IMG/VR virus record: IMGVR_UViG_3300027759_000202
Coordinates: 1-37,962 of that record
Origin: a virus
Reading direction: 5' to 3' (one strand)
Length of the DNA: 37,962 bases
Under the pieces are notes generated by a model. The model saw only the letters and a list, made by a program, of their open reading frames with translations. It was not told where the DNA came from and did no database searches. Below, piece by piece: positions 6,934-37,962 of the stretch (its first letter is position 1; each line of letters begins with the position of its first letter). A program made the translations under genes and the position numbers.

Positions 6934-8675
6934 TATGGTGCCAGTGCGTTTTGTCTGTTGCCAGCCTGCGCGGCTAGTAATGCGGCTAATTTAACTTGGT
7001 CACTTGTTCTTAGTGAGTTTGCCAATGTGTTAGCGCTTGCTGGTCTTTGAGCAAGCAATGTAGCCGCCATTCTTTGGCCTGGCGCCGAGTACAACAATGG
7101 TGACGCCGTAAGGCCGCCTAATGCCGTAGCAACTGCTGGAAACCCTGCTGCGCCAGCTCCACCCGATGCTGCAAGGGCAGCTATTAAGGCTCGGTATGGC
7201 GTACCAGAATCAGGCACCTTGTTGCCCAATGCGGTCTTTGCGCTTTCTGACAAGTCTTGCATCAACGCCTCGCCCTTGGCAAATTTACCTTTGTCCTTGC
7301 TTTTGTCCATTGCCTTTACGGCACTCTGCAATTGAGCCGGTGAGAAAATTCCTTCTTCCGATCCAAGGCCACTAGCAGCACGTTCAACGCGCTTGAAATT
7401 GGCATAACCTGTGTCTATGGCTTTTAATTCGTCAGCGAATTGGGGGTTGCTTCTTCTGACTAATTGGCGAACTTGGTCTTGAGTTTCTTTTAAAGCATCG
7501 CCAATAAGACGTTGGTCTGCATCAGTTGATGCGCTTAGACGATTAATTGTCTCGCGCAAGTCGCTCTGCACTTCCTTTAATGTCTTGCCGGTAATTGCTG
7601 CCTGTCCTTGAAACTTGCCAAGCACATTGCTGTCAACCCAATTGTTGAAGAAATTGACTGCTTTAGGATCAATTGCGCCAGTCTGAACTGCGGATTTTAA
7701 GTTAGCAATTTCAGTTTGAAATGGCGCATCTTGCATAACAGTCATCTTGGGCAACAATTTGCCGTAAGCATCGTCCAATTTATCAGATGCAAATTGCACA
7801 GCTTCACGTCCAACAACGCCTTCTGGCAATTTTTCACCAATAGGTTTAAGAGCACGATTAAATGCAGCAGTGTTGACTTGCTGCGCAGCTCTGTTTTGTG
7901 CGCTTTTAATAAAATCACCGATAACTGGTACGCTAGTTAGAGCTTCTTCTGCACGTTTATAGCCGCCACCCAAAATCTGTCCAGCAGTAGGCACAACGCC
8001 TTCTTTCATCAAAGATTGGATTTGTGGTGAAACATTTGGACTAATTACCGCTGCCGCTGGCTTAATCAAAGCATTCATAGGATTGGTGAGCTCAGATGCT
8101 TTAGACAAAGCATTAGCTACTTGGCCAACTTTCCCCGCAGTATTTGCAGTTTTAAGTGCAAGACCAGTTCCACCTAACACAGTAGAAATGTCACCTACAA
8201 CCCTAAAAGGGTCTTGCTCCATAGCCTTTTGGAATCCTGCACCCGTTCCATACGTTGTTGCATAGTCCTGGCCAATGGCGCCAGCTACATTCTGTGCGCG
8301 TTGCAATGCTTCTGGATTTCCAAGAGGGTTGTACGGCGACTGCTCAATCGCTGTTAAGCCGCGCTGTACTGGGCCTGGCAATGCTTTATATACACCTCCA
8401 GCAACAACATCACCCAAGGCTTGCGCGGTTTGCAGAGGATGGGCTACTACCTGAGACAGGCCGCCGATGGTGTTTTGGTAAAGGCTAGGCAACGCATTTG
8501 ATAGCGTTTTGCCAAAGTCGTATCCGCCATCTTGTTTTGGCGCAGCCGGAGCCGCCGACAAACCTTCAGATGCCTTGGCTTCTTGATAGGCTTTTGCAAC
8601 CGTATCAAACTCAGGCGTTCCTTTCTTGCCAGAGTTAGCAACAATCCATTGAGCGTATTGGTCAGCGGTAGCCAT
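6933..8675 (-). CDS. Probable DNA-ejection / internal virion protein, 580 aa
   Basis: ATG 8675 is chosen because GAGGT lies 9 bases upstream and the protein then starts with ATADQYAQWIVANSGKKGTP, resembling a short N-terminal module I associate with large phage virion proteins; the ATG at 8732 would overlap the upstream gene by 47 bp. The rest is Ala/Gly-rich with long helices and hydrophobic glycine stretches (AALAASGGAGAAGFPAVATALGG), typical of P22 gp16/gp20-like proteins that leave the capsid with the DNA. It follows two other probable ejection genes. No lytic transglycosylase motif is seen. Confidence 0.65.
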   Translation of the reverse strand: MATADQYAQWIVANSGKKGTPEFDTVAKAYQEAKASEGLSAAPAAPKQDGGYDFGKTLSNALPSLYQNTIGGLSQVVAHPLQTAQALGDVVAGGVYKALPGPVQRGLTAIEQSPYNPLGNPEALQRAQNVAGAIGQDYATTYGTGAGFQKAMEQDPFRVVGDISTVLGGTGLALKTANTAGKVGQVANALSKASELTNPMNALIKPAAAVISPNVSPQIQSLMKEGVVPTAGQILGGGYKRAEEALTSVPVIGDFIKSAQNRAAQQVNTAAFNRALKPIGEKLPEGVVGREAVQFASDKLDDAYGKLLPKMTVMQDAPFQTEIANLKSAVQTGAIDPKAVNFFNNWVDSNVLGKFQGQAAITGKTLKEVQSDLRETINRLSASTDADQRLIGDALKETQDQVRQLVRRSNPQFADELKAIDTGYANFKRVERAASGLGSEEGIFSPAQLQSAVKAMDKSKDKGKFAKGEALMQDLSESAKTALGNKVPDSGTPYRALIAALAASGGAGAAGFPAVATALGGLTASPLLYSAPGQRMAATLLAQRPASANTLANSLRTSDQVKLAALLAAQAGNRQNALAP

Positions 8676-30404: not shown

Positions 30405-31928
30405 TTAAGACCCCATCCATGAAGTATGTACACCACTATTTTGCGCGTTTACGCGCCTAGTGGGCTCAGTATACTCGCGGTGAGCCACAGGAAAGGCAAA
30501 CGTCACGCACAGCGCGTCGGCTGCGTCAGGTGATGCTAACCCTCGTGCTCTCATCTCTTTTTTCCCTTCAAGGAAAATAGTGCCTGCCGAATTGGGCTTC
30601 TTGGCAGGGCCAGTCAAATCCGCTTTTAACTGCCTATCGGGCGGGATACTAGCAGATTTTAGCCAATTCCTCATCTCATTCCACATTTCGGCGCGTTTAT
30701 TGCCAAAAGCAATTGACTGCTTAGCCTTATTCCCAAAGTTGACCCCGCGCACCTTATACCGCTGCTCGGTCAGCCGATCCAGTATCCCGTACCCCAGCCC
30801 GCCCTCGTCAATCACAGTCAAAACAGGCTTGAATTCCTCAATCGCCTCAATGACGCGCCCCACAATCGTCATCGTGTCCTCGCCCTGATACCGCTTAATG
30901 GCCACAAGGTCGCGGCCTTGGCGCACAACAATCACCGTCGAATCCGCGCCGCCCCGAGCTGGGTCAACCCCCACAACAATAGGCGCAGTCAAATCCTTGT
31001 ACTTGGGCCTCTTGGCGGCATCATCTACCAGCATAGGGCTAATAAACTGATCCTCGCCCGCCGACGGGAACTCACCGTAAACCTCAACTTTGGCCTGGGA
31101 GGAATCCTCGCCGTACTCGGCAATAATCTGCTCATAAATAGCTTTATCCGTGTCCTCCACAGTCCTCGCGTCTACGGTACGGCTGTTCCAGAAATCCCTT
31201 TTGGCGTGAAAGCACTCAAAGAAGTACCCCTCATTGCGCCTAGGGTTGCTAAAAGCAAACCAGTACCTATCGGGCGTGTTCTCCGTAAAGAAGCCAGCGC
31301 CCACCTCCCAAATCGGGTTAGGAATACCGCTGGACTCGTCAAATATCAGCATCATGCCGTCCTGATTATGGACGCCGGCATAGCTATCAGGATTCTCAGC
31401 AGACCACAGTTTGCCCTCGCAGGCCCAATAGCGCGTACCCTTTTTCAAGTCCCTCTCTACCAGTTCCGTCAACCAGGTAGCAGGCACCAGCTTAGTGGCC
31501 GATATCTCCCACCAATGCGAGTTAATCAACATCGCCGCCCACTTTGTGAGCTCGGCCCACGTCACAGAACGTAACTGGTTCTCGCTGTTCGCGCTAACCA
31601 CCACAGAGCCACCAATTCGGGTGGTCAGCATCCAAAGAACTAGCCAACTGACAAGTGCTGATTTACCAATCCCCCGCCCGCTGGATACCGCCTCCCGAAT
31701 GGTGTCATAGTTAACCTTACCCTTTTGCGCCTTAATGTGATTGGTTACATCACGCAAAACATCGCGCTGCCATTTCCTCGGGCCAGTAAATTTGGCTAGG
31801 GGCGTGTTCTTTACACCCCACGGGAAAGCATACAAAACAAAAGCCTCTAGGTCGTCGGCTATGGCCGGTGACCATAACTCGGTCATCAGCTTCTGTTCTT
31901 CTTCACCTCGGTAGATGGGCAGTTGCAT
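30405..31928 (-). CDS. Terminase large subunit
   Basis: The 507-aa protein has an N-terminal ATPase with Walker A SSGRGIGKSA (82-91) and Walker B MMLIFDESSG (192-201), and a C-terminal RNase H-like nuclease with VGVDPARGGADST (Asp322), VLTVIDEGGLGYG (Asp374) and SPDAADAL (Asp468, Asp471). It would pump DNA into the procapsid and cut the concatemer. Overall type resembles BcepC6B/BPP-1-like terminases. Unusually, two genes (one on the other strand) separate it from the small subunit. Confidence 0.95.
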   Translation of the reverse strand: MQLPIYRGEEEQKLMTELWSPAIADDLEAFVLYAFPWGVKNTPLAKFTGPRKWQRDVLRDVTNHIKAQKGKVNYDTIREAVSSGRGIGKSALVSWLVLWMLTTRIGGSVVVSANSENQLRSVTWAELTKWAAMLINSHWWEISATKLVPATWLTELVERDLKKGTRYWACEGKLWSAENPDSYAGVHNQDGMMLIFDESSGIPNPIWEVGAGFFTENTPDRYWFAFSNPRRNEGYFFECFHAKRDFWNSRTVDARTVEDTDKAIYEQIIAEYGEDSSQAKVEVYGEFPSAGEDQFISPMLVDDAAKRPKYKDLTAPIVVGVDPARGGADSTVIVVRQGRDLVAIKRYQGEDTMTIVGRVIEAIEEFKPVLTVIDEGGLGYGILDRLTEQRYKVRGVNFGNKAKQSIAFGNKRAEMWNEMRNWLKSASIPPDRQLKADLTGPAKKPNSAGTIFLEGKKEMRARGLASPDAADALCVTFAFPVAHREYTEPTRRVNAQNSGVHTSWMGS

Positions 31929-31971: not shown

Positions 31972-32160
31972 ATGAAAAAAGTAGTTGCATACTGTGGTTT
32001 CAACTTTTCCAACAATTCAGCGTATTTGCGAATGCCAGAGGCGTTTTGGAGTCAAACCGACGCCATGAGGCTGGAAATTGTCAACCAGTTGATTGAAGAA
32101 CTGGCCAAAGAAAAAGAGCATTTGCAGGTTCTTAATCAACCTGGTACCCCAAATATTTAG
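31972..32160 (+). CDS. Small hypothetical protein on the opposite strand, 62 aa
   Basis: ATG 31972 follows GGAGG at 7-bp spacing, so this start is preferred over an in-frame ATG at 31915 inside terminase. The product (MKKVVAYCGFNFSNNSAYLR) has an acidic helical C-terminal half (LIEELAKEKEHLQVL). It is the only rightward gene inside the long leftward late unit, divergent from terminase and convergent with the 519-aa gene, overlapping the latter by 29 bp. It looks like an independently inserted moron-like gene, but function is unknown. Confidence 0.6.
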   Translation: MKKVVAYCGFNFSNNSAYLRMPEAFWSQTDAMRLEIVNQLIEELAKEKEHLQVLNQPGTPNI

Positions 32161-33691
32161 CAATGTTGTCAATTGCTTGCTGGTCTAGCTTCTCGCCATG
32201 ATGGCTTTTTAGCAAAGATGTGCGAATGTTGCTAATAGTCTTTCCTTGCGCCTGCCTTTCGGCAAATGTTTTTGGCAACATTAAATAATCTGGAACACCA
32301 ACAACATTACCTGCGGCATTTTGAAAAGAACCCATAAGTTTTGCTTTAAGGCCAGCATTGTATGAACCATGCTGAAAATCCGGCGTAACCATTTGAGTTT
32401 TGGGCTGAACTTCCAACAATGTGTGCGCCATGCCAGTTTCAGCGCCAGGCTCACTCATTACCTTGTAAATATCTTGCCAGCGTGGGAACCCTTGTTTTTC
32501 CATTGAAGCAGTAGACCCAACTTCAGCAATTGCTTTGCGTATGTTGCCTGGGCTGTATTCTTTTGTCCCTTCAGCCATAATCTCACGAATGTTTGGGCTA
32601 TCCAAACCAGGGAAATTACTATAAGGGTATGAAATTTCTTTAGTAATTGGGTCTTGGACTTTAGTGTTTCTTACCGCATCCCTAAATGAACTTAACGCTT
32701 CACGCGAAGGTTTGATAGCATTTAAAGCACCCACATAAGACTCGGCCACATGATGCGAAAAATTAATGCCGCTTGGCGCTAAATTCATCTGCACACCAAT
32801 GGTATCGCCAAGATCACTAAACTTGTTTAAATTATTAATCTTGGACGATTGCGCCGACACGTTAGAAGCCCCTCCAACGCCTTGTTGTAAATTCTCTTGT
32901 ATATACGGGTAAAGCCTGCCGCCTTGACGCTGAACAAAAGCTGGTGTTGCATCTTTCAAACCTTGCGTCAATGGAATGCCGGCAATTTGCGTGACGTTTC
33001 CACCAGTGGCTGATGTGTCCCACAAAATCGGGACAGCATATTTATTCAACAAAGTATTAGGATGCACACCAAATTCTTGCGCCACATTTAGCGAGGGCTG
33101 CACAATATCACCAGTGCCAAACAGCCTAGCCTGCTCTCGACGCATAACAGCGGGTGTATCCAAAATTGATTTGTACTTTGTCAACGCAGATTTTTCCGCG
33201 GGCGACAACATTGCCTCAGTCTTGCCAGGAAACAATGCTTCAATTGCTTTTAACTTGCCAACACGTTCAGCCATGTTTGAAGTTGTACTTTGCCCCATTG
33301 CTCCAAGCATCTCAGCAGGCAAGCCGCCGCGCTCCATGATCTGGGGAACCACCTTCTCAGCCAAGCGCTCACCGGCGCGGCCAACTGTTAACGCGCTGTT
33401 GTTAAACACTTTAGCACCAGGCCCAACCATCGGCGCCACAGCCATCATCGCGTCCAGCGCGTCATTGTTAAACCTTGTCGTGCCGCCAAGCCCTCCGGCT
33501 CCAGTGGTCAGGGGCTCGCCGTAAGACAACCTATCCAGCGTCCGGCTGATCTCAGGCGCACTTAAAAACTTAGCTATGCCCTGCATATGCTGCGTACGCT
33601 CTGGCGAGTAACTCTGCGCAAGAAAGTCGGACAACCCACCAAGGAGCGCGTTGCGTGGCGTGGCTTGGATCATGGCGTTGGATATGGGCAT
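32132..33691 (-). CDS. Putative virion-associated / ejected protein, 519 aa
   Basis: The protein starts MPISNAMIQATPRNALLGGL and has an N-terminal region about GEPLTTGAGGLGGTTRFNND followed by ALDAMMAVAPMVGPGAKVFN. Similar N termini occur in large virion proteins of aquatic podoviruses that I believe are carried in capsids, but I cannot name a family. The remainder is mixed alpha/beta with no nuclease, peptidase or transglycosylase motif I can identify. It lies between the small and large terminase genes, an unusual place. No clear Shine-Dalgarno precedes ATG 33691, and the AT-rich run at 33692-33732 lies immediately upstream. Confidence 0.65.
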   Translation of the reverse strand: MPISNAMIQATPRNALLGGLSDFLAQSYSPERTQHMQGIAKFLSAPEISRTLDRLSYGEPLTTGAGGLGGTTRFNNDALDAMMAVAPMVGPGAKVFNNSALTVGRAGERLAEKVVPQIMERGGLPAEMLGAMGQSTTSNMAERVGKLKAIEALFPGKTEAMLSPAEKSALTKYKSILDTPAVMRREQARLFGTGDIVQPSLNVAQEFGVHPNTLLNKYAVPILWDTSATGGNVTQIAGIPLTQGLKDATPAFVQRQGGRLYPYIQENLQQGVGGASNVSAQSSKINNLNKFSDLGDTIGVQMNLAPSGINFSHHVAESYVGALNAIKPSREALSSFRDAVRNTKVQDPITKEISYPYSNFPGLDSPNIREIMAEGTKEYSPGNIRKAIAEVGSTASMEKQGFPRWQDIYKVMSEPGAETGMAHTLLEVQPKTQMVTPDFQHGSYNAGLKAKLMGSFQNAAGNVVGVPDYLMLPKTFAERQAQGKTISNIRTSLLKSHHGEKLDQQAIDNIAKYLGYQVD

Positions 33692-33921
33692 AGGGCGGTT
33701 TTTACCACAAATTTATAAAAAATAAAAATTGTTTACGAACCCACCCGTTCCTTGGCCATTTCCAGCGGGCCCTACCCGGGGGGCTCGGCGGGATTGGCGG
33801 ATGGGCAGGAATCGTGCCATGCGCCCAAGGGTAGAGTTGTCCACAGGGTTATCCACAGCCCTTGTACTTAACATAACGCCCGTTGTATAAAGTACAAACG
33901 TATCAGCTGGACTTATCCACA
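33692..33921. other. Non-coding gap with DnaA-box-like cluster (possible origin)
   Basis: The gap holds an AT-rich run (33700-33732), a GC-rich stretch (about 33740-33830), then TTGTCCACA (33837-33845), TTATCCACA (33849-33857) and, inside the small terminase end, TTATCCACA (33913-33921). TTATCCACA is the perfect DnaA-box consensus. Between them lies an inverted repeat TTGTACTT...AAGTACAA (33862-33869, 33890-33897). A sigma70-like leftward pair TTGTAC/TATGTT falls in the same inverted repeat, so a promoter for the 519-aa gene is an alternative reading. The third box encodes VDK near the terminase C terminus. Confidence 0.45.
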
Positions 33922-34427
33922 ACCTTGGGCGTGATGTCGGTGACGTTATCCAGCTGCAATGTCTGCACCCTGGCCTGCGCCGCCTCGAGCGCGCCGAGCA
34001 CGCTGATGCGCTCGTCCCTCACCGTCATGTCAATGCGGTCGCCATACGTCCTCGGCTTGAGCTTGCTAGCGATCCACTTGCGCGCGTCCACCTGCATCCG
34101 CTTCTGCTGCACCCAGGCAGACGCCATAGCGCCTTCCAGCCCCTCAGGCATCTGCTCGTCAGAGAGCTCAAGTATTTCGTCGGCTAGCTTGTCTGCGCGG
34201 TTTTGAACCGCCTTCTCATAGGCAGCGTTCAAGCTGGCATCGTGCGCCAGCATAGCCTGGAACACCGTCCAGTTAGGCATTCCCTTCTCAGACAGCACCG
34301 TGCTCACGCTTTTGCCAGCCGACACCCGATCAATGATTTCACTCCAAACTGGGTGATCGGGCGGCCATTTCACTGGTCTGCCCATGATTGCACCTGTTTT
34401 TGTCATCTTTTCGGCTATTGCCTTCAT
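33903..34427 (-). CDS. Terminase small subunit
   Basis: The 174-aa protein has an N-terminal DNA-binding region (MGRPVKWPPDHPVWSEIIDR followed by GKSVSTVLSEKGMPNWTVFQ, helix-turn-helix-like) and a C-terminal part with RMQVDARKWIASKLKPRTYG, a signature of phage small terminase subunits. It recognises the packaging site and feeds DNA to the large subunit. Start could be ATG 34427 or the internal ATG before GRPVKWPP (34385). Its gene lies about 2 kb upstream of the large subunit with a 519-aa gene between. Confidence 0.88.
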   Translation of the reverse strand: MKAIAEKMTKTGAIMGRPVKWPPDHPVWSEIIDRVSAGKSVSTVLSEKGMPNWTVFQAMLAHDASLNAAYEKAVQNRADKLADEILELSDEQMPEGLEGAMASAWVQQKRMQVDARKWIASKLKPRTYGDRIDMTVRDERISVLGALEAAQARVQTLQLDNVTDITPKVVDKSS

Positions 34428-35229: not shown

Positions 35230-35418
35230 TCATCCTAAAAAACACAACCTCGGGCATTTGGTAATTTGCCAAATGGGAGCGTATATTAAGACATACGCTC
35301 TCCCATTTGGCAAAACTGCACCAAATCTATGCAAACCACCATTTTTCTCCATTTGGCTCACCATTTGGCATCCATTTGGCATCCATTTGTCCCATTTGTC
35401 CCATTTGGCAAATTTCAC
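35230..35418 (-). CDS. Possible small ORF through the repeat array (62 aa)
   Basis: A GTG start at 35418 follows AGAGGAAAA, and the stop lies 4 bp before the 214-aa start, a layout that would fit a real gene. However, its sequence is dictated by the DNA repeats (KWDKWDKW then out-of-phase MPNGCQM), because the repeat spacing (9, 11 and 12 bp) shifts frame. I list it only because of the ribosome-binding site and tight junction; the DNA-level repeat function is more likely. Confidence 0.2.
   Translation of the reverse strand: MKFAKWDKWDKWMPNGCQMVSQMEKNGGLHRFGAVLPNGRAYVLIYAPIWQITKCPRLCFLG
35265..35314. repeat. Long inverted repeat ending in CCATTTGGC
   Basis: TTTGCCAAATGGGAGCGTAT (35265-35284) and its near-complement ATACGCTCTCCCATTTGGCAAA (35293-35314, with a 2-base insertion) flank an 8-base loop. 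The arms each contain one CCATTTGGC element, one inverted and one direct. It lies 40 bp upstream of the 214-aa start, so it could be a hairpin, a two-sided operator or part of an origin. Confidence 0.8.
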
Positions 35419-35467
35419 GTTTTTCCTCTCATCCGTCCATTTGGCTCACCATTTGGCTCCATTTGTC
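35303..35467. repeat. Array of CCATTTG(G/T)C direct repeats (iteron-like)
   Basis: Ten direct copies of the 9-mer start at 35303, 35349, 35361, 35372, 35383, 35392, 35401, 35437, 35449 and 35459, with CCATTTGTC at 35383, 35392 and 35459 and CCATTTGGC at the others. One inverted copy is at 35268. The core run has spacings of 12, 11, 11, 9 and 9 bp, about one helical turn. A 21-bp unit containing two copies and the TCA spacer occurs twice (35349-35369, 35437-35457). The array fills the gap between primase-helicase and the 214-aa gene, as expected for protein-bound origin iterons or a multi-site operator. Confidence 0.8.
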
Positions 35468-35507: not shown

Positions 35508-37499
35508 CTAAAAGTCCCCGCCATTTTGGTCACTATCATCCCAAATCACCCACACAAAAGGATCAAAAACCTCCACCCTTTTGGCGTTCTGAAGGCTCTG
35601 GACGCACCTCGTAAACCGCCTTTTGATGCCTGCTTTGTCCATCTGGGCCACCTCAAACGCTTGCTGCCACTGCTCGGTGTAGATTGATTTATTGCGCTTT
35701 CCGTCAATTATCCGCATCTCCCCAAACTCCGAAATCGCTTTGTGCAAGGCGTCCAGCGCCTGCTTTTGGATGCCGCCAGCCCCCGTTCTTAGTGGCGGTG
35801 GCTTCGGTTTCTTGTGTTGTTCGTCAATCATTTCCTGATGCTCCCTGACCGCTAATGACAGGGATTCGCCCAGGTTTAGCCCACCGCTGGTGTCAATTTG
35901 CACCATCTCAAACCCGAATTTGATGTTGTCCTGGCCATCCTTTTGCTTACTGATGGTGATGATTCCCTGCCCCGCTACACCTTCCTTCTTGACTGTTACG
36001 TCAAGTTTCTGCAGCTCCAGTTGCGTGTCCACGGCGCCTAATAATGAGCTGTGACCGCGCAATCCTTTGGTCGCATCCTTGCCTGAGTGGTGCAAAACCA
36101 TGAGCGCGCAGTTAAGTTTGCGCTGCATCCGACCCGTGTTATGGATAAATGCACCCATGTCCTGAGAGTCGTTCTCATTGCCACCGCCAAACGCCCTGGC
36201 CAGCGTATCTATCTGCACCAGCCGCAACTGAATGCCTGTCTGCTCTATCAGGTTGTCAATTGACTCCATCAATAAATTGAAGTCGTCGGCGCTTGATCTG
36301 AGGTTGAGCTGGTGCCTAATGACGTAAATCTCTGCCCCGTCCTGCGTCTTGTTGTGTATCTTGCAAGCTTTTATACGCGCCCCAATACCGCCATGACCCT
36401 CGCCAGCAATATAGATAACGGCGCCGGCTGCTGCAATCTCGTTGCCCATCCACTGGCGTCCTGTAGCCACAGCCTCGGCTATGTCCAGCGCCACAAACGA
36501 CTTGTAACTGCCTGGCGGGCCGTATAAGGCTGCAAATCCCTTGTCTGGCAATACGTTTTCAATGATCCAACTTACCGGCTCGTCCTTGATAGTGTCCCAT
36601 GCCTCGATGTTGAGCAATTGCGGCGTCGGGTTGTAGGCATCCATGTCAGGCATGGGCTCTGATGTTGGGGCTGGGGCTGGCTCCTCTGCCGGTTCAGTAA
36701 TGACTGGCGACTTCTTGGCTAGGCTTGCAAGCTCCGTCCTTGTCCCCGCCATGTCGTTTACCCACTCATAGGCATCATCACCCTCTACCATAAGATTAAG
36801 GTCTAAGTACCTGATTGATTTAGCCACGGATAAGAGCTTGGCTATAGCCTTTTTCGCGTATGCTCTGCCTGGCTCGTCATTGTCAGGCACTATCACAACG
36901 TTTGCGCCCGCGAAATACTGGGTAATGTCCTCGGGCCATGACCCTGCACCCGTATGACTTGTGGTGGCCACCGCGCCAATGCTGATTAGCGCATCGGCTG
37001 CCTTCTCGCCTTCTACCAAATAAATTGCGCGTCCCGCTGCCTTGGCTTGCAGCATCTCAGGCAGGCGGTAGGGCACGATTCTGGTGTCCTTGAGCCCCGC
37101 CGTCCGCTTGCCTTGCGCGTCCACTCTGTGGATTGAGTACGTCTTACCCTTGGCGTCTGCCGTCTTGTACCGGCGCTTGGTAAACAAAACGCTGCCGTCC
37201 TCTGCCGTGTACTCCCACTCCTGCTGCAGCGTTGGCGCCTGGTGCTGGGTAAAGCTAATCTCCTCCCGCTTGGGCGTTGTGGGCAGCAGATTGCGCTCGC
37301 GTACCGAGTCAAACACGTCCCGCTGGTCGCAGCCGCCGTGACAGTGGAATAAGATTTTGCCCTCTGATTCTGAGATAGACAGGCTAGGGTTCTTGTCCCC
37401 GTTGCCTCTGCCGTGGCCAGGTACGGGGCATGATGCCACCCATGATCCATTGACCTTCTTGGCGTTGCCCAGCGCCTTGGCTATTGTTTCTGTGTCCAT
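35508..37499 (-). CDS. DNA primase-helicase: zinc-binding, TOPRIM and RepA/AAA-type helicase
   Basis: The 663-aa protein begins with a zinc-ribbon (Cys24, His29, Cys53, Cys57, in SCPVPGHGRG and FHCHGGC), then a TOPRIM fold with YLVEGEKAADAL (160-171) and VIVPDNDEPGR (202-212). After a Pro/Glu-rich linker (270-285) it has a RepA/AAA-25 helicase with Walker A YGPPGSYKSF (326-335), Walker B LVQIDTLARAFGG (427-439) and MVLHHSGKDATKGLRG (467-482). It would synthesise RNA primers and unwind the fork; the phage carries no polymerase I can see. A strong AGGAGGAGCC precedes ATG 37499, which overlaps or abuts the methyltransferase stop codons. Confidence 0.93.
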   Translation of the reverse strand: MDTETIAKALGNAKKVNGSWVASCPVPGHGRGNGDKNPSLSISESEGKILFHCHGGCDQRDVFDSVRERNLLPTTPKREEISFTQHQAPTLQQEWEYTAEDGSVLFTKRRYKTADAKGKTYSIHRVDAQGKRTAGLKDTRIVPYRLPEMLQAKAAGRAIYLVEGEKAADALISIGAVATTSHTGAGSWPEDITQYFAGANVVIVPDNDEPGRAYAKKAIAKLLSVAKSIRYLDLNLMVEGDDAYEWVNDMAGTRTELASLAKKSPVITEPAEEPAPAPTSEPMPDMDAYNPTPQLLNIEAWDTIKDEPVSWIIENVLPDKGFAALYGPPGSYKSFVALDIAEAVATGRQWMGNEIAAAGAVIYIAGEGHGGIGARIKACKIHNKTQDGAEIYVIRHQLNLRSSADDFNLLMESIDNLIEQTGIQLRLVQIDTLARAFGGGNENDSQDMGAFIHNTGRMQRKLNCALMVLHHSGKDATKGLRGHSSLLGAVDTQLELQKLDVTVKKEGVAGQGIITISKQKDGQDNIKFGFEMVQIDTSGGLNLGESLSLAVREHQEMIDEQHKKPKPPPLRTGAGGIQKQALDALHKAISEFGEMRIIDGKRNKSIYTEQWQQAFEVAQMDKAGIKRRFTRCVQSLQNAKRVEVFDPFVWVIWDDSDQNGGDF

Positions 37500-37502
37500 T
37501 AT

Positions 37503-37962
37503 TTAGGCTCCTCCTGAGAGGATTCGCCATGCAGTTGCTGCGCAAAGTGGGACTTGTCCATTTCCAATGGCTTTAAGTCTGTCCACCCTAGCGGCCACCC
37601 CATTAGCCACTCTACCCACGTTGGGTTCAAAGGCCCACCAGCCTGTGCCGCTAGGGGGATTTCGTTCCTCTTGTACTCCGAGGGATTTCCACCGTCTTTG
37701 TGCATTCTGGACACTGGTGTTGGCCATAGTCTGGGATTGTTCACTTGGTCCACCAGTCTGATTTGTACGGGCTGACCATTCGCTCGATGATTCTTGCCTT
37801 GCTTGAGTATTCCAGATGTCCCCCCCCCCCGTGTCTGGCGTGCGCCACAATCCAGATGCGGTCGCGCTGGTGCGGTGCGCCAATGTCGGCAGCTCCCATA
37901 ACATTCCATTTCGAGTCATACCCGAGACTGGAAAGGTCTCCAAGGACTCGCCCGATTCCTCG
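37503..37962 (-). CDS. C5-cytosine DNA methyltransferase, C-terminal part (frame broken at the G11 tract)
   Basis: This continues the gene whose start is at 501. From the edge the frame gives motif VIII HQRDRIW and then AHARH before the G tract at 37820-37830. As written, with 11 G, that frame soon stops at 37741 (195 aa in total). If the tract were 10 G, it would join the frame ending at 37503, which contains ANTSVQNAQRRWK, EPNVGRVANGVAARVDRL and motif X KAIGNGQVPLCAATAW, giving 274 aa. If 9 or 12 G, it would join the frame ending at 37499, which contains LNPTWVEWLMGWPLGWTDLK, another methyltransferase-type tail (275 or 276 aa). The stop of that frame overlaps the primase start (TAATG). Confidence 0.75.
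   Translation of the reverse strand, partial: EESGESLETFPVSGMTRNGMLWELPTLAHRTSATASGLWRTPDTGGGDIWNTQARQESSSEWSARTNQTGGPSEQSQTMANTSVQNAQRRWKSLGVQEERNPPSGTGWWAFEPNVGRVANGVAARVDRLKAIGNGQVPLCAATAWRILSGGA
37820..37830 (-). other. 11-G homopolymer in the methyltransferase gene
   Basis: Plus strand shows eleven consecutive C (37820-37830); the coding strand therefore has G11. The tract lies directly after motif VIII. Its length sets the downstream frame: 10 gives the motif X tail, 9 or 12 gives the NPTWVEWLMG tail, 11 gives early stop. The left contig end begins inside the same run. It could be a sequencing or assembly miscount, or a slippage hotspot. Confidence 0.9.
37828..37962. repeat. Terminal overlap, right copy
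   Basis: Identical to 1-135 except position 37836 (t here, g at 9). See the left copy; joining the two gives one circular molecule of about 37,827 bp with an uninterrupted methyltransferase N terminus. Confidence 0.93.

Follow-up and report, generated by a model that had tools for sequence, protein, structure and literature searches.

The locus examined here, in the IMG/VR virus record IMGVR_UViG_3300027759_000202, raises the question of why three DnaA boxes are packed into 85 bp of a phage genome and what they serve. The window, that is, the whole stretch of DNA that was analysed, is 37,962 nucleotides long. The boxes are TTGTCCACA at positions 33837 to 33845 and two copies of TTATCCACA at 33849 to 33857 and 33913 to 33921; all three are on the plus strand, as the original prediction had described them (same orientation, two exact consensus sites), and exact TTATCCACA occurs in the whole window only as these two copies (33849 and 33913). 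The last codons of the small terminase gene contain the third box, a point that had been overlooked. The DnaA-box consensus TTWTNCACA is not enriched over the whole window (3 found versus 3.9 expected). When TTGTCCACA is included, 6 sites are present in 38 kb, 3 of them within 85 bp, and such a group was reached by 0/400 first-order Markov sequences, which confirms that a chance origin of the cluster is improbable. The cluster also withstands the two objections that had been raised with it, equal density elsewhere in the genome and absence from relatives: such sites are sparse outside it (0.03 to 0.11 per kb in nine genomes, the window among them), and the boxes are kept at fixed positions in relatives. 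The unusual feature is the clustering of the boxes, not their total number in the window. The DnaA cluster itself therefore stands, whereas a replication origin, the function originally assigned to it, is not the best explanation; the boxes appear to be arranged around a XerC/XerD site and not around a DNA-unwinding region.

Between the second and third boxes lies a 36-bp imperfect palindrome (33862 to 33897; arms complementary at 14/17), which was likewise overlooked. It holds a dif-like core of 28 bp on the minus strand, ACTTTATACAA CGGGCG TTATGTTAAGT (33866 to 33893), in which an 11-bp XerC-type arm (ACTTTATACAA; 33883 to 33893), a 6-bp centre (33877 to 33882), and an 11-bp XerD-type arm (TTATGTTAAGT; 33866 to 33876), the last near-invariant in relatives, form an imperfect dyad. 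The dif site of Rhodoferax ferrireducens, as given in Table 1 of Carnoy and Roten (2009; PMC2731167), is ACTTGATACGA TGTATA TTATGTTAAGT. The arms of the window core are identical to it at 20/22 positions and the centre at 1/6, so that CGGGCG differs from TGTATA at 5/6; each of the remaining 47 published dif sites in that table has at least five arm mismatches to the window core. Judged by its sequence, the core is almost certainly a Xer site, and the three DnaA boxes appear to be part of a larger element, the module, built around this putative dif-type XerC/XerD recombination site. Chromosomal dif, as treated in the same source (PMC2731167), has the same 28 bp in an 11-6-11 arrangement, is intergenic, and shows a XerD arm that is more conserved than the XerC arm, as in the phage site. 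Unlike chromosomal dif, the phage site always has a different hexamer, is flanked by phased DnaA boxes, and adjoins terminase genes on a phage.

A TerS search of IMG/VR returned 140 relatives, and among the best 80 of these 140, which were kept, the core lies directly after terS in 80/80; the same core rule found 0/240 on shuffled loci. A pattern scan with the arms only gave at least 120 stretches, from which 119 cores were taken for analysis (L117 to L234 and L020). The modules pooled from the fetched loci numbered 209; 197 had full flanks, and 85 were left at 85% identity. All 85 non-redundant cores show the 11-6-11 layout, which the search rule itself demands. For 82 of them, the closest of the 48 published dif sites is that of Rhodoferax, and the arm mismatches number 1 to 5. 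The centres mismatch TGTATA at 2 to 5 of 6 positions in 85/85 cores, with none at 0 or 1, and they vary among cores (TGACCA, CGACCA, CGGGTG, CGGGCG, TGTCCA, and others). A hexamer equal or nearly equal to that of the host dif, as in a chromosomal dif or the attP of a dif-integrating phage, was thus not found in this set. The arms are asymmetric, with a C-A opposition at pair 9/20 in 84/85 cores, and the retention of this asymmetry fits two different recombinases rather than a hairpin. An RNA hairpin or terminator was rejected: in most cores, positions 5/24, 7/22, and 9/20 do not pair, and no compensatory changes are seen. The KOPS-like sequence GGGNAGGG occurs three times in the window, once near the module.

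The boxes keep fixed distances from the core. When offsets are counted from the start of the core and in its orientation, modules of type A have boxes at -28 and +48, and those of type B at +38, +79, +94, +104, and +117/118. The window has the type A pair (33913 to 33921 at -28 and 33837 to 33845 at +48) plus a box at +36 (33849 to 33857) that is found in close relatives only. Among the matches listed in the arms-only scan, at least one box is at a canonical offset in 114/119 cores, and 335/351 boxes are at such offsets; the five listed cores without a canonical box are L156, L183, L205, L211, and L165, the last of which ends at a contig edge. Shuffled flanks never gave two boxes at the same offset, and a canonical box is still present in 27/31 modules after stricter thinning of the flanks. 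The offsets are unchanged in inverted modules (L120, L136, and L220), and the boxes keep them even where the flanks, which are mostly unconserved outside the boxes, have diverged. The core is present in exactly one copy in each of the nine genomes examined. Beside the core there are, by sequence, phased candidate sites for a host DNA-binding protein, as expected of a site of the cer and psi type. At cer and psi, as outlined in PMC5357621, host XerCD acts together with DNA-binding proteins of the host that occupy an accessory region of about 180 bp; the phage module would share with these sites the host XerCD, the host accessory proteins, and the resolution of directly repeated copies. It differs from them in that its accessory sites are DnaA boxes, located on the XerD side (type B) or on both sides (type A).

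The module is placed between the terminase genes. In the window, terS (33903 to 34427, minus strand; PF20901 Sf6_terminase, phrog_1482) precedes it, and terL (30405 to 31928, minus strand; phrog_2) follows after a 519-amino-acid open reading frame without a family match (32132 to 33691, minus strand). This reading frame is missing from many relatives, in which terL comes directly after the module. Both terS and terL were detected at 72 of the 85 non-redundant loci, and the core lies between them in 72/72; the rest comprise four loci with terS only, one with terL only, and eight with neither. The 72 loci consist of 56 that are P22-like and 16 with an SU10-like terL, and the module is inverted relative to terL in 7 of the 72. 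The two terL types are only about 30% identical, and the SU10-like lineage was recognised through SU10 capsid, portal, and adaptor families in open reading frames of G018 and G008; the placement of the core is shared by two unrelated podophage lineages. In L183, another terL is present downstream of the core. A pac site bound by TerS is an unlikely identity for the element, as the conserved letters are those of dif arms and DnaA boxes, they are common to phages with just about 29% identity between their TerS proteins, and the module also occurs in inverted form.

The constant position between terS and terL would be like that of lox in P1 if pac is placed as in P22. In P1, loxP lies beside pac and is repeated in the terminal redundancy, and Cre acts on it in circularisation and dimer resolution. 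The shared feature would be a recombination site near the start of packaging; the recombinase proposed for the phage site is that of the host, whereas that of P1 is phage-encoded. For P22 itself, PMC8575938 describes pac in the centre of terS and packaging that runs toward the terS 3' end. The contig ends in our set do not cluster sharply at terS, in a search that itself demanded terS on the contig.

Bases 1 to 135 of the window match bases 37828 to 37962 as a direct repeat with one mismatch seen, and a cytosine-methyltransferase-like gene reads across the window ends; the genome is therefore complete at about 37.8 kb. End repeats close three of nine records (about 135 bp with a mismatch in the window, 55 bp in G008, and 85 bp in G018). 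A tyrosine recombinase (PF00589) had no match in 15/15 genomes searched, and a serine recombinase, ParA, and an S24 repressor (PF00239, PF13614, and PF00717) were found in none of 17/17. Use of host DnaA by the phage, which had also been proposed, is supported indirectly, because relatives retain the boxes at fixed positions and because a search of 17 IMG/VR genomes for a DnaA domain-IV protein found none; 16 of these genomes are known core carriers, and one (G014) was outside the core check. A phage-encoded DnaA-like protein as the ligand of the boxes was set aside, since the only one found, outside these 17 genomes, is in MW202483, which has no core. We infer that the host belongs to the Comamonadaceae because of the dif arms, which agree with those of Rhodoferax at 20/22 positions in the window, and the freshwater relatives. 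An inovirus-like contig ends in a dif-type site (L235:6393-6420) with the arms of the phage and the centre TGTATA, as expected for a filamentous phage that integrates at dif; its presence suggests that the sampled habitats contain bacteria whose dif is of this kind.

The explanation that we prefer, with a probability of roughly 0.6, is that the module is a phage-borne Xer site which recombines only with its own copies and lets host XerCD circularise or monomerise the genome, with DnaA as an accessory factor or timer. It draws on arms that track the dif of the host group, a centre that is never that of dif, box offsets that are fixed, and the placement between terS and terL. Packaging would start at pac in terS and proceed toward the terS 3' end, as in P22, so that the Xer site would be packaged first and be present twice, once at each end of a headful genome. 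In the injected DNA, host XerCD may recombine these two direct copies and close the genome without a phage recombinase or RecA; alternatively, it may resolve dimers later. Because pdif sites recombine only when their spacers are identical or nearly so, as reported in PMC13141974, a centre that is never that of dif points to exchange between copies of the phage site, and it would thereby avoid integration at dif. The pdif sites of Acinetobacter plasmids, as presented there, likewise have dif arms and variable, GC-containing spacers and recombine between sites with identical spacers; in contrast, the phage has a single site per genome, which does not bound mobile modules and is accompanied by DnaA boxes. 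DnaA at the boxes may build or license the synapse in a role like that of ArgR and PepA at cer, and it would perhaps be titrated off as the phage multiplies, leaving concatemers intact for packaging. Of all the steps in this mechanism, the part assigned to DnaA is the least secure. A point against the proposal is that headful packaging would suffer if concatemers were resolved efficiently, unless resolution were timed.

The nearest rival is dimer resolution in an episomal state, in which the phage would be maintained like a plasmid, as a circular episome, and the site would resolve multimers at cell division like cer, psi, and pdif. We consider this unlikely. In its favour, the centre is plasmid-like and unlike that of dif, the RepA-like primase-helicase gene adjoins an iteron-like array, three records close on themselves, and a ParA-like partition protein is encoded on the contig L211, which has boxes next to its core. 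However, the 17 genomes have neither ParA nor an S24 repressor, a small Cro-like HTH protein is the only one of its kind found, and no core-bearing plasmid was found in PLSDB. L211 (core at 8318 to 8345, minus strand, with the centre TGTTTG) has genes of the DnaB and DnaG types together with the ParA-like partition gene and an inverted pair of DnaA boxes directly beside the Xer core; it is possibly a phage-plasmid.

An attP for XerCD-mediated integration at the host dif, as in CTXphi or VGJphi, would explain arms that match a host-type dif in genomes that lack an integrase (15/15). Filamentous phages integrate by this route (PMC2731167 and PMC5357621), and the IMEX phages CTXphi, VGJphi, and TLCphi, as described in the latter source, likewise lack an integrase and exploit host XerCD. 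Moreover, TGnnnA centres share bases with TGTATA, and VGJphi is stated to tolerate partial homology. Nevertheless, those phages integrate at dif with a centre that matches at least in part, whereas the phages here have other centres, with 2 to 5 differences in every non-redundant core, and no prophage was seen: a TerS scan of 84,980 species genomes gave no chromosomal prophage and only two MAG contigs, and when the arms of the phage site were sought with TGTATA as the centre, one contig emerged, that of the inovirus. A scan with generic proteobacterial arms (TNCGNATAA-N6-TTATGTTAAAT) gave at least 120 loci, at which terL was sought with three queries and misses are likely; among the matches listed, none of 33 cores with dif-like centres (TGTATA, TCTATA, and TATATA) is on the 5' side of terL within 2.5 kb, compared with 35 of 87 cores with other centres. 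Integration at dif is therefore improbable as the function of the site. One of the two TerS-matching MAG contigs (L114; 9.9 kb), from a genome labelled Acidimicrobium, carries the core with boxes at +38, +79, and +118; it reads as DNA of a phage from this group and is probably in that genome through a binning error.

A DnaA-dependent replication origin, the function first proposed, is quite improbable. Conserved clusters of DnaA boxes are indeed present, and the AT-rich run noted about 100 bp from them exists at 33707 to 33735. However, the box offsets are fixed to the Xer core even in modules that are inverted relative to the adjacent genes, and the AT-rich run lies outside the module, as the leader of the downstream gene; in the P22-like relatives inspected, it abuts the start codon of the next gene and is not among the features that the modules have in common. 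The cumulative GC skew, proposed as a check for a minimum, shows no consistent minimum, maximum, or switch at the core. Iteron-like arrays are present at a syntenic place 1.2 to 1.5 kb away in 5/9 genomes: in the window, seven CCATTTGGC repeats, candidate iterons (35303 to 35465), lie beside the gene of a primase/RepA-like helicase (35508 to 37499), and arrays of other 9-mers are found at this place in G004, G008, G012, and G013. The array beside the primase-helicase gene is a better candidate for the origin than the DnaA cluster. Least probable of all is DnaA-regulated transcription or mere titration of DnaA with a Xer-like core that is bound and not recombined, for although DnaA can act as a transcription regulator and the module is upstream of terL and the late operon, the module occurs in both orientations relative to terL (7/72 inverted), and binding alone does not require the retention of a 6-bp centre with two distinct arms.

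Returning to the preferred reading of a phage Xer site worked by host XerCD, we consider that many freshwater phages that encode no recombinase probably use such a site for host enzymes to close or separate their genomes. Closure of the genome in virulent headful phages is usually ascribed to homologous recombination. If the reading is true, there would be a host-encoded, site-specific route of closure, marked by a 28-bp motif beside terL and readable directly from metagenomes; arms that track the host dif would serve as a host predictor, XerCD would be named as a host factor of infection, and DnaA as a Xer accessory factor would be a new link between the control of replication initiation and site-specific recombination. 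A broader idea, which we advance tentatively and with more doubt than belief, is a class of "host-borrowed lox" sites in widespread recombinase-less tailed phages, with arms that follow the host dif, a different centre, a position beside the packaging start, two copies per pac-initiated genome, and closure by host XerCD; in betaproteobacterial phages, DnaA would be a new Xer accessory factor whose titration times closing against the keeping of concatemers. In the open-licence literature that was searched, we found no paper describing such a terminase-side phage Xer site.

Sites beside terminases also occur with other arms and without these boxes. Among the matches listed in the generic-arm scan, 12 of 13 cores with the centre CACCCA are before terL at about 186 bp, and this group has fixed boxes of its own near -134, -122, -111, -100, +91, and +113; DnaA boxes of any kind are near 27 of the 120 cores listed, and generic CGCATAA arms with a box at +38 were not found. 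By DNA similarity, PLSDB plasmids and isolated phages gave only short matches to the core or module. A dif-profile scan of 13 named phage records (9/13 only around terL) found no core in 11, including DSL-LC05 and Rhodoferax phage P26218, and weak repeats of lower score in MW202483. These three related P22-like phages lack the element, so phages of this kind can do without it. Phage C72C1 (OQ984150; L380:2847; L386) has TTGTCGCATAA CGTCCA TTATGTAATCT between terS and terL, no DnaA boxes at this core, and no annotated integrase. C72C1 and most generic-arm sites are free of boxes, so a Xer site next to terminase genes does not in general need them. The podophage MW202483 carries a gene (31423 to 31719; L238) for a stand-alone DnaA domain-IV protein (PF08299).
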